This document shows, piece by piece, positions 52,989 to 59,646 of a stretch of 64,000 nt of DNA (position 1 is its first letter; each line of letters opens with the position of its first letter). Below the pieces are notes generated by a model. It was not told where the DNA came from, made no database searches, and was given only the letters and a program-made list of their open reading frames with translations. Both the position numbers and the translations under genes were made by a program. This DNA comes from Paramesorhizobium endophyticum (lineage in GTDB: Bacteria > Pseudomonadota > Alphaproteobacteria > Rhizobiales > Rhizobiaceae). The stretch is from NCBI RefSeq assembly GCF_014640615.1, contig NZ_BMHH01000020.1:1-64000 (forward strand), in the 5' to 3' direction.

Positions 52989-54084
52989 GAACGCGCCCAT
53001 TGCGACGGCGAACAAGGTAGCGATGAGGCTCGACCCCGAGGCGATCAACGATGCGCCCAAACCAGCCACTTCACCAAGCGAGCGCATGGCCATCGCGTTC
53101 AGATTGCGAAGAGGATCCCGATGGCGAAAAAGGCGGCGAAGCCGAGCAGCATGAGAACCGGGAGGGGTGGCCGTCCGCCCCATAGGGTCGCGGCAAGCAG
53201 TATTAAAAGACCTGCGACGGTCAGGCCCAGAAAGGCGACGCGCGCCATGGCGTCCATTCCGAAGCGCTGGACGAGTTTCGCATTGAGAAACGAGGCAAGC
53301 CCTATTCCCGCCGCAAGCGCCGCGAAGTAGAGGGGGAAGGTTTCGGCGATCCCATAGGCATCGAGGAAGAGATCGGCCGCCGTGCCGAGATAGAGAAGCT
53401 GTGCGCCGAATACCAAACCGGTGGTCGCGATCAGCATCGCCACGCGGCGGTTCGACAGGATGCGCATCCGTTCGACAGAAGCAGTTTCGGACGGAAGGCT
53501 ATTCGTTTGTCGACGGGCAATGTCTCGGGTTGCCGCAGCACCAGCCAAAGGCCGAGCAGGCCGGCCATCACGAGATAGAGCACAAAAACACCGCGCCACC
53601 CGCCAATCGCGATAATGCCTTGCCCCAAGGCGGGTGCCAGCGTCGGCACCAGGATGAAAAGCGTGAACATGAAGGACATGACACGCGCCATGGCATCGCC
53701 TTCGAACGGGTCCCGGATCATGGCCCGCGTCGCGATCTTCGGACCGGCAACGCCCGCCCCCTGGAGAAGCCGCCCGAGGATCACCATCTCGAGCGACCCG
53801 GCCAGCATGGCTATGATTGTGCCGAGGGCATAAACGCCGAGGCCGAGGACAAGCGCTTTCTTCCGTCCGATGGCGTCCGAGAGAGGCCCAAGAAACAATT
53901 CGCCAAACGCCATGCCGAAGATGAAGAGCGAGATGACATGCCGCGTGGAGAGAGGAGGCGTCACGCCGACATCCGCTCCGATCTGCCGTAACCCAGGCAA
54001 AAGCGCGTCGAAGCTGATCGAGGTGATCGACGTCAGAAGGGCATAGAGAGCGATGCACTCGCGAAAACTGATGGAAAGGGTCAT
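52866..54084 (-). pseudogene. Bcr/CflA-type MFS drug exporter, two frameshifts
   Basis: Reading starts at 54084 with a proper Bcr/CflA N-terminus (DALLPGLRQIGADVGV; PLSDAIGRKKALVLGL; LLQGAGVAGPKIATRAMIRD). It leaves frame near 53475 (after about 200 residues) and resumes in a second frame (NRRVAMLIATTGLVFGAQLLYLG to a stop at 53099). The last segment (NLNAMAMRSLGEVAGLGAS...) lies in a third frame, ending at 52866. Each shift equals loss of one base. The three parts add up to about 400 residues, the normal family length, so one gene has decayed or was mis-sequenced twice. An intact form would export drugs such as bicyclomycin or chloramphenicol. Confidence 0.8.
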
Positions 54085-54439
54085 AGGCCTTCTGCACGCA
54101 AGTGCCGACTGGGCGGCGCTAAAATGAAGTCGAAGTCAATCCGGTAATCACCCGTGGTATGGATGCTTCACCCTTTCAGCGTCAATGGCCGGCGTCGAAT
54201 ATCGACCAGCCTGCCATTTCTCCACCGAATGGCTCGGCCTGCTGTTTATGCGGGTTTTGATGGAAACCAGCAGGTGAGAGAACAGATGTGGCTTGAAGCC
54301 TATGGAAGCGGCAGTGAACAGGCTTCGTCATTCTGCCACAGTCGACGAGTTGTCACATTGCGAGCCATGGCTATGGGTGACATGATATCCGCTTGCCAGC
54401 CGCCGCGTCCGCGTCCGGTCCATCCGCCTGGCCCAATAA
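54085..54439. other. Interval between the MFS pseudogene and the peptide-binding protein
   Basis: I see no gene in this stretch. It should hold the divergent promoters of the MFS remnant and the binding-protein operon. A plus-strand open frame crossing it is arginine/proline-rich and has no family character. Confidence 0.4.
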
Positions 54440-57481: not shown

Positions 57482-59272
57482 TTAGTGCGCCATCATCTCG
57501 CGCACGATTTCCTTCGCGCCCATAGAGGATGGATAATAGGTCGGCCAGTTCGTCACTTCCTTCAGCAGGGCGGCGCGGTCATTGCCCCAGTAGAGATGAT
57601 AGTGGTCGGCGGTTTCCGGCGCGATCTTGTGGTCGCTGAACTGGATATATTGCGGCGCGGCCTCGTCGCCCTCCACCTTTTTGAAGATGAAGCGAACACC
57701 GCGATTGCCCTTCTCATAGGTCAGGATCTCGTGGCCATCGCCTGCATAGCGGGCCCGCAGCGGCTTCCCCTTTTCAAAGAATGTCACGGTGTCGCCCTTG
57801 ATCTCGATCCGCTCGACATTTGTCCGGTAGCCGATGTCATAATAGGCGCGGTATTCGTCGGCGGACTTGCCGCCTTGCTTGGCCTTGTGTTCCATCACTG
57901 GATCGAGTGTTCCGTCCTGGAGATAGGGATAGACCGACTGCCAATCTCCAGCCCAGTCCGAAAGGGGGCGCTCCTTGACTTGGCTATCCTCGAAATAGCC
58001 TTTGTACACAGGGTCATTATGGTCATGGGAATGCCCGTGAGCCGCGCCTGAGCCGCCGACGGCGACGATGGAGAAGGGCTGGCCTTCGACCGGGATCGTG
58101 CGGATTTCCTTCACCGTTTCCGGGTCGATCACACGGATGGTGGAACGGCGCGGATCGGTGATGGCTATCTCACCATCGGCAACGGCCAAGCGCGGGCGCG
58201 GATCGCGCCAATGCCCGTCCTTGCTGTAGGGCTCCGTGACTTTGCCCTTGCGGACGACCTCGCCCTTGATCACATCAAGCACATGGAGATTGCCGTCTTC
58301 GGTAAGGATGTAGGCATTGCGCAGTTCTGCCGGGTCGAGCACGAAATCGACGCGCCGGGTCGGAAGCTCGACCAGCCGGTACGGCTTCTCATTGTCCGGG
58401 TCGATGAGGGCGAGTTTGTCCTCCCCGTAATTGCCAAGGAAAAACTGCATCGCCTTGCCGCCAAGTAGGGTGCTTGTATAGCCCTTCGGGAAGTCGGCAG
58501 GGTAGGGGAGCATTTGCAGCTTCGGGCCGTCGATGCCGCCCGGACGGGCGATCAGAACGCCTTCCTTGCAGCCGAAGGCGACGAGACGCGCGGATGTGGC
58601 TTCGCCATGAAGGTCCGTGCATGTGGCGATGTCGCCAACCTGCTTTCCATCCTTGTCGACAACGCGCAGCCCGATGCGGGGCGGCAGCTTGTCTGGCGCG
58701 GTCTCGGCTTTCGTGTCGGGCACCGATACGAGGACATGGCGGCCCATGGTAACAGCGACACCGTGATGGGGCTTGGTCGTATCGATGCTGCGCACCTGCA
58801 CCTTGCCTTCGAGAAGGGCCGCTTCGTCGATAATGTCCGCCTTGCCACCACGGTCATAGAAAAGCACCGCATGGTCGTCATGCGGAACCACATGGCCCGG
58901 CCGCGCGCCTTCGAAGGTCACGGGAAGAAGCGCGGTGTCCGTGACGTTGAGATCGCGATGATCGCCGTGGTCGGAAAATTCGATGCCGCTCTTGATGACA
59001 TGGGTGATGTCCTGGTCTGCCTGCGTGGCGAAAATCGTCTGTCCGGAGGCGCTGGCGGTCAGCGCTGCATAGCCCTTGAGCTGATAACGGCCAAGCTCCT
59101 TGCCCGTTTCGAAATCGATGGCGCGAACGACCGGCTGCGTGTGGTCGGCGACGAAGAGGCGCCAGGCTTTCTCCGTATCATGGTCGTCCTCTGCGAGCGC
59201 GCCCTGCGCGGTGAGGGCGAGAGCTGCCGCCATGATGGCTGTCACGCGGTTCCGATTGGCGAATATTCTCAT
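57482..59272 (-). CDS. Fused zinc chaperone: AztD-like beta-propeller plus ZinT domain
   Basis: The ATG at 59272 follows an AAAGGA site and gives 596 residues with a Sec signal peptide (ending GALA). Residues about 25-400 resemble AztD, a periplasmic zinc metallochaperone with a beta-propeller fold, including His-rich loops (SDHGDHRDLN; GHVVPHDDHAV). A His-rich linker (HGHSHDH, 412-418) leads to a full ZinT domain (about 420-596). The three ZinT zinc ligands are kept with correct spacing: His548, His557 and His559 (SDH...HYH). Both halves hand zinc to a ZnuA/AztC-type importer, so the fusion should be a one-chain periplasmic zinc carrier. No aztABC or znuABC genes are in the window. Confidence 0.88.
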   Translation of the reverse strand: MRIFANRNRVTAIMAAALALTAQGALAEDDHDTEKAWRLFVADHTQPVVRAIDFETGKELGRYQLKGYAALTASASGQTIFATQADQDITHVIKSGIEFSDHGDHRDLNVTDTALLPVTFEGARPGHVVPHDDHAVLFYDRGGKADIIDEAALLEGKVQVRSIDTTKPHHGVAVTMGRHVLVSVPDTKAETAPDKLPPRIGLRVVDKDGKQVGDIATCTDLHGEATSARLVAFGCKEGVLIARPGGIDGPKLQMLPYPADFPKGYTSTLLGGKAMQFFLGNYGEDKLALIDPDNEKPYRLVELPTRRVDFVLDPAELRNAYILTEDGNLHVLDVIKGEVVRKGKVTEPYSKDGHWRDPRPRLAVADGEIAITDPRRSTIRVIDPETVKEIRTIPVEGQPFSIVAVGGSGAAHGHSHDHNDPVYKGYFEDSQVKERPLSDWAGDWQSVYPYLQDGTLDPVMEHKAKQGGKSADEYRAYYDIGYRTNVERIEIKGDTVTFFEKGKPLRARYAGDGHEILTYEKGNRGVRFIFKKVEGDEAAPQYIQFSDHKIAPETADHYHLYWGNDRAALLKEVTNWPTYYPSSMGAKEIVREMMAH

Positions 59273-59646
59273 TGTGTTCCTTTCTTTCGTGGCAAGGTAG
59301 TCCGGTCTTTCCGCTGCGATCCGCAATGGAATGCGGAAATGCATTGATACGTTATTAAATTACAATTCGTAATAACATTACCGCAGCGCTGGCTGTCAAT
59401 CTCAGAATCGTGGAGGTCCGCGTTGCGGATGAAATATGAGGGAGGCGGCCGGAGTGCGGTCCCGGCAAATTTGCCAAGTTCCGCGCTCGGCCGTTCCGAG
59501 GGCGAGGGCTTTCCAATAATTGCGCCGCCCGTGCCGTATGTTCCCTCGCAAAGGACGAAGGAACGCTTGCTTGACCGCGCGCAATTGCTCTTTCCCATCC
59601 GTCGTCTAAGCTAGGCCCCGTCTGAAGCGAGAGACGGAGGCCCTCA
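59273..59646. other. Divergent interval upstream of AztD-ZinT and the CoA-ligase gene
   Basis: There is no gene here. An AT-rich patch (59341-59381) holds dyads that suit a zinc-responsive repressor. A small hairpin, CCGTCT (59618-59623) with AGACGG (59632-59637), overlaps the GGAGG ribosome site (59636-59640) of the downstream CoA-ligase gene. Confidence 0.45.
59369..59381. promoter_or_regulatory. Candidate Zur-type operator
   Basis: GTAATAACATTAC is a perfect 5-3-5 dyad in an AT-rich patch about 100 bp upstream of the AztD-ZinT start. A related half, GTTATTA, lies close by at 59351. Its base composition and position fit a Zur (zinc-responsive repressor) site, expected for a zinc-uptake chaperone. 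The assignment rests on context only. Confidence 0.4.

Follow-up and report, generated by a model that had tools for sequence, protein, structure and literature searches.

Why would a bacterium carry two zinc carriers, AztD and ZinT, in one polypeptide, and to which importer would such a protein hand its metal? The question is raised by the aztD–zinT fusion gene of Paramesorhizobium endophyticum, which lies on the minus strand at 57482..59272 of the 64,000-nucleotide stretch of DNA analyzed here (the window). Few bacterial extracytoplasmic zinc chaperones are known. AztD and ZinT are among them, and each has so far been treated as a helper of importers with no relation to the other; a recurrent fusion suggests that they act in one route, and offers a natural construct for measuring zinc transfer between defined sites and then to AztC or ZnuA. 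We propose that the protein is probably a Zur-controlled periplasmic two-domain zinc metallochaperone, which would feed AztC where that protein is present and otherwise, as here, ZnuA. Each half belongs to a known family. In the open-licence literature that mentions AztD we found no description of the fusion, its recurrence or its fixed joint.

The Fusion Gene and Its Product

The gene consists of one uninterrupted frame encoding 596 amino acids plus a stop, and a whole-genome search found its product once in the genome. An in-frame ATG upstream, at 59344, would give a protein of 620 amino acids; the start at 59272 is favored because, on inspection, it has the ribosome-binding-like sequence GAAAGGAAC in front of it and opens a signal peptide. 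This predicted Sec-type peptide (59192..59272, minus strand, residues 1–27; MRIFANRNRVTAIMAAALALTAQGALA followed by EDD) was likewise assigned by inspection and ends in ALA directly before EDD. Behind it follow, in order, the AztD propeller, a His/Asp-rich linker and the ZinT domain. Domain searches bore out the original prediction that AztD and ZinT occupy one chain: the NCBIfam AztD model NF038015 matches residues 41–407 with 420.6 bits (cut-off 400), as expected for the region read as an AztD-type propeller (residues 25–400), and the Pfam ZinT model PF09223 matches residues 420–596 with 279 bits (cut-off 27). From its sequence, the product is predicted to be a single secreted (periplasmic) protein built from two normally separate zinc carriers.

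A sequencing or assembly error that joined two genes, which would have undone this reading, is ruled out by relatives with the same fusion together with purifying selection. Genomes G001, G002 and G003 bear the same one-frame fusion at 86–89% identity, as do many other genomes, and dN/dS against three relatives is about 0.1 for each half, so that both halves are under purifying selection. A damaged copy in G208 (L134/L230) has lost about residues 185–381 of its AztD half and keeps an intact ZinT half, a sign that the two halves can decay separately.

The AztD and ZinT Halves

The AztD β-propeller domain (58040..59191, minus strand, residues 28–411) was assigned from the NCBIfam match, a structural model and conserved ligands. 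The AlphaFold2 model is confident over approximately residues 32–412, and its nine best Foldseek matches in the PDB, 6cmk, 6n01 and 6ck1 among them, are all AztD chains with TM-scores of 0.95–0.97 over the target. Among solved structures, the AztDs of Citrobacter koseri and Paracoccus denitrificans come nearest. When the ligands and disulfide defined for P. denitrificans AztD (PMC6689063) are mapped through the alignment, site 1 corresponds to H127/H170/H222, site 2 to H102/H105/D107 plus H412, and the disulfide to C218/C235, all of these residues being invariant in the alignment. No match to the cluster A-I binding-protein domain (PF01297) was found in this N-terminal half, which is AztD. The protein thus shares with the AztDs of the AztABCD systems of P. 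denitrificans and C. koseri (PDB 6ck1, 6cmk) the propeller fold, both sites, the disulfide, the equivalent of His408 (here H412) and a Zur-type box; it differs from them in bearing a C-terminal ZinT domain and in belonging to a genome without aztABC.

The ZinT domain (57485..58015, minus strand, residues 420–596), identified by the Pfam match, carries the zinc triad H548/H557/H559, and the original assignment of these three residues as zinc ligands is supported by their retention in 38/38 fusions. The AztD ligands are kept alongside the triad across these 38 distinct fusions, except where the AztD half is truncated or deleted (L134, L309, L310). Compared with solved structures, the second half is closest to the ZinT domain of AdcA (PDB 7jja, E 1.9e-56). 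The NCBIfam ZinT equivalog PRK10306, which describes a single-domain secreted protein, scores 216.5 bits and remains below its cut-off of 300, an AztD domain being present at the N-terminus here. Structure prediction, which had been suggested as a check on both folds, was confident for the propeller; the ZinT half, for which a lipocalin-like fold is expected, was modeled with low confidence because only five aligned sequences covered it. For this half the assignment is by sequence, which matches solved ZinT domains strongly.

Two known arrangements of ZinT invite comparison. ZinT (YodA) of Enterobacteria, a partner of ZnuA, has the same domain and three-His zinc site, but is a separate secreted protein, whereas here the domain is attached behind AztD. 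In AdcA of streptococci (ZnuA-like and ZinT domains; PDB 7jj9), ZinT is likewise the C-terminal part of a zinc-uptake protein, behind a short linker; AdcA's N-terminal partner is a permease-docking binding protein, whereas the one found here is a chaperone propeller.

The Junction

Between the two domains lies the His/Asp-rich junction HGHSHDHND (58013..58039, minus strand, residues 412–420), which begins with H412, the equivalent of His408 in P. denitrificans AztD. H412 aligns with the C-terminal (fourth) zinc ligand of AztD transfer site 2, and the nearest unfused AztDs end exactly at GGSGxxH, their final residue being this ligand; ZinT has therefore been joined immediately behind the transfer site. 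The stretch HGHSHDH (412–418) had earlier been read as a linker, which holds insofar as the joint is His-rich, but it is not linker alone, since its first residue is an AztD ligand. Past the site-2 His, the fusions run into a His/Asp-rich stretch and then into ZinT, with the joint in all of them directly after that His. The linkers measure 10–40 residues (median 20), contain 4–12 His (median 6), are 27% H and 17% D in composition, and remain His/Asp-rich in every fusion. Because some unfused AztDs have His-rich tails and unfused ZinTs have His-rich N-termini too, the stretch could derive from either parent.

Evolutionary History of the Two Halves

The fusions occupy three deep clades of the AztD tree, A (20), B (11) and C (4). 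Clade C, to which the window's fusion belongs, branches among unfused rhizobial AztDs with identities of up to 80%. The fused/unfused label requires 8 changes on this tree, 6 of them forced by well-supported branches, and a single clade of fused AztDs is rejected (p = 1e-69, 76-row set). The data are compatible with a single clade of fused ZinTs (p = 0.47 in a 36-row set, 0.22 in a 77-row set). Across 35 proteins compared for both halves, each tree is rejected by the sequences of the other half (ZinT data against the AztD tree, p = 9e-6; AztD data against the ZinT tree, p = 8e-42). AztD identity averages 39–44% between clades and 62–85% inside a clade; for ZinT the corresponding figures, grouped by AztD clade, are 74–77% and 76–88%. 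Corrected AztD distance rises from 0.40 within clades to 1.11 between them and ZinT distance from 0.28 to 0.32, where within-clade pairs would predict a ZinT value of 0.44 from a linear fit or 0.72 from a fit through the origin; the size of this excess is uncertain, as the within-clade correlation of AztD and ZinT distances is modest (r = 0.46).

One ancient fusion passed on by purely vertical descent with losses is rejected as the whole story, since the two trees reject each other and the near-threefold increase in AztD distance from within to between clades is matched by hardly any in ZinT distance. Judged by the tree, the same joining is found on three or more distant lineages of AztD. The simplest reading is exchange, more than once: ZinT modules would have been transferred to AztDs, or the AztD half in front of a ZinT would have been replaced by another. 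With AztD halves in three deep clades and ZinT halves that do not follow the split, the halves appear to have been shuffled repeatedly at the same joint; new joinings and swaps both fit, in either direction. A more specific proposal, to which we hold only tentatively, is that ZinT can be transferred as a module and has been added repeatedly to different AztDs, in every case directly behind the site-2 ligand, creating a relay chaperone whose partner range would have widened from AztC to ZnuA and which could thereby survive the loss of its importer.

The original prediction also regarded the fusion as a Rosetta-stone link between the two families. That link is strengthened by the recurrence on several AztD lineages, but it finds no counterpart in gene order, as unfused aztD and zinT were not neighbors in the inspected loci: no adjacent, separate pair that could be a precursor was seen in unfused AztD loci with flanks of up to 9 kb. 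One candidate pair, in G1007 (L304, 7496–9578), has its two halves in different, overlapping frames and looks like a fusion frameshifted near the junction rather than two genes.

The main rival to a two-domain chaperone, one that we consider plausible if somewhat less than evenly so, is that the halves are independent modules on a tether, produced in 1:1 amounts and secreted together but exchanging no zinc. The range of linker lengths and His counts would suit a flexible tether, unfused AztD and unfused ZinT are each widespread, and the G208 copy retains its ZinT half behind a broken AztD half; a joint that always falls right after the site-2 His, followed by a linker that is always His/Asp-rich, nevertheless suggests a tether that handles metal, and the same architecture is met on three AztD clades.

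Promoter and Importer Partners

The fusion promoter contains a candidate Zur box, GTAATTTAATAACGT (59349..59363, minus strand), which is the best match in the window on both strands at 17.7 bits, the next unrelated site scoring 11.8 and five simple shuffles peaking at 10.6–14.9. The matrix was built from five P. denitrificans sites with p-values (PMC5387054, Table 7), and, this matrix being small and the shuffles few, the box is rated strong but unproven. It is identical at 14/15 positions to a site of 23.3 bits between znuA and znuC in the same genome, GTAATTTAATAACAT. A second, weaker Zur-like site, GTAATGTTATTACGA, lies at 59367..59381 (minus strand; 10.6 bits). Elsewhere, stand-alone fusions mostly have strong Zur boxes, and many fusions inside operons have no box directly in front. 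From these sites we infer that the fusion is likely to be under Zur control.

No zinc importer was found next to the fusion gene in the window, as had been noted; its neighbors there encode an M20-family peptidase, an oligopeptide-type binding protein, an acyl-CoA-ligase/acetyltransferase protein and a sigma factor. (Also within the window, an MFS transporter gene at 53099–54097 on the minus strand is apparently split by a frameshift near 53431, its N-terminal half in the 53431–54084 frame and the remainder in the 53099–54097 frame.) The ZnuA-family proteins of the genome are encoded outside the window. A whole-genome search in which such proteins were typed by comparison with solved structures yielded only two, a SitA/YfeA-type protein on contig C6 and ZnuA on C11, and no AztC, so that the usual association with aztABC is lacking. 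On C11, an autoinducer synthase gene is located downstream of znuB (L256, 7740–8348).

In other genomes the expected importer genes do sit beside the fusion. AztC is encoded within 8 kb at 21/38 large fusion loci and ZnuA directly upstream at 2/38 (G012, G923), with a CobW/COG0523 gene only at 4/38 and no partner at 11/38. Fusions that adjoin aztC often have CobW/COG0523 and Fur-family genes nearby too. Thus, G003 has aztABC divergent from the fusion, G004 has aztABC, the fusion and cobW in a row, and in G012 and G923 znuA lies immediately upstream and znuB and a Fur-family gene run divergently. Together with the Zur box, these aztABC operons and znuA neighbors support the proposed link to zinc importers.

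ZnuA is kept in 10/10 genomes that have an intact fusion without an intact AztC (G000, G001, G181, G230, G272, G349, G354, G960, G996 and G1113), the listed completeness of which is 99–100%, although absence of AztC from a draft can be an assembly gap; in G001, ZnuA is the only ZnuA-family protein. In G1023 (L347) and G1113 (L348), an aztC stump comprising the last 60–70 residues stands just upstream of an intact fusion and the rest of the azt importer was not found at either locus, which suggests that the chaperone outlived its own importer. G1113 has ZnuA; G1023 lacks it and encodes a further AztC-like protein elsewhere.

These partners bear on two further alternatives to a chaperone that feeds an importer. 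That the protein is a reservoir or buffer mainly storing periplasmic zinc, without an importer partner in its own genome, would accord with the absence of an azt operon there, but seems unlikely given the Zur-type box common to the fusion and znuA/znuC, the 23/38 fusion loci that adjoin AztC or ZnuA, and the retention of ZnuA in all the genomes examined that have an intact fusion and lack AztC. A relic of a lost azt operon, decaying in place, is highly improbable: the fusion does stand alone between unrelated genes and other stand-alone copies have aztC stumps, but its low dN/dS applies to both halves, two of the three relatives compared also carry it away from azt genes, and the Zur box and all ligands are retained.

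Proposed Function

For the two-domain chaperone, the following scheme may be envisaged. Under zinc shortage, the AztD half would bind scarce periplasmic zinc at its pore site and at transfer site 2, and the ZinT half would do so at its three-His site. The metal would then be delivered to the cluster A-I binding protein of a zinc ABC importer, which in most relatives would be AztC, encoded next to the fusion. In the window's bacterium the recipient is most likely ZnuA of ZnuABC, since the genome has no AztC and only ZnuABC. As ZinT is attached directly behind the fourth site-2 ligand, the fusion would hold the two sites close, and ZinT could then offer a docking arm as well as a store of zinc during hand-over. 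The passage of zinc between ZinT and site 2 within one molecule is plausible but unproven.

AztD is reported to give AztC zinc from site 2 only, and that of P. denitrificans not to donate zinc to ZnuA (PMC6689063); delivery to ZnuA would therefore have to rest on the ZinT half or on altered specificity. ZinT has been linked to ZnuA, and in AdcA the ZinT domain and a His-rich loop are described as aiding the binding domain under shortage (PMC6689063, PMC7858048); according to PMC7858048, no direct interaction of ZinT has been observed in vivo in Gram-negatives. A fusion that unites the delivering site with an arm known to approach ZnuA-type proteins favors a chaperone for zinc shortage. As PMC6689063 puts only nearly half of AztDs in association with a ZnuA-family protein, co-encoded aztABC is typical of AztD rather than defining.

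Distribution and Annotation

The fusion, whose wider occurrence had been put forward for checking, is encoded with both halves in a single frame by at least 28 of the 396 family genomes and by at least seven further genomes of the order sample, each count taken among the matches listed. The class-wide sample gave a ZinT match in 5/385 genomes, and no further full fusions were found among the 398 genomes of the phylum-wide sample. As far as these searches reach, Hyphomicrobiales appear to be where the architecture is concentrated. In Phyllobacterium zundukense A18/3m, one plasmid has a fusion-length match behind aztC (L327) and another an unfused AztD with aztA and aztC (L328), so that different azt loci meet in one cell.

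Plasmid records that name such proteins AztD only or ZinT only hide the architecture, which makes this a gene-naming problem. At L327 (6001–7731 of plasmid NZ_CP104972.1) only the ZinT part of the fusion-length match is annotated as a gene, and a fusion-length match in NZ_CP104968.1 is labeled AztD only. Separately, a record titled Bacillus subtilis SK6B4 (L084) contains an AztD near-identical to those of Pseudochrobactrum and is probably mislabeled or contaminated.
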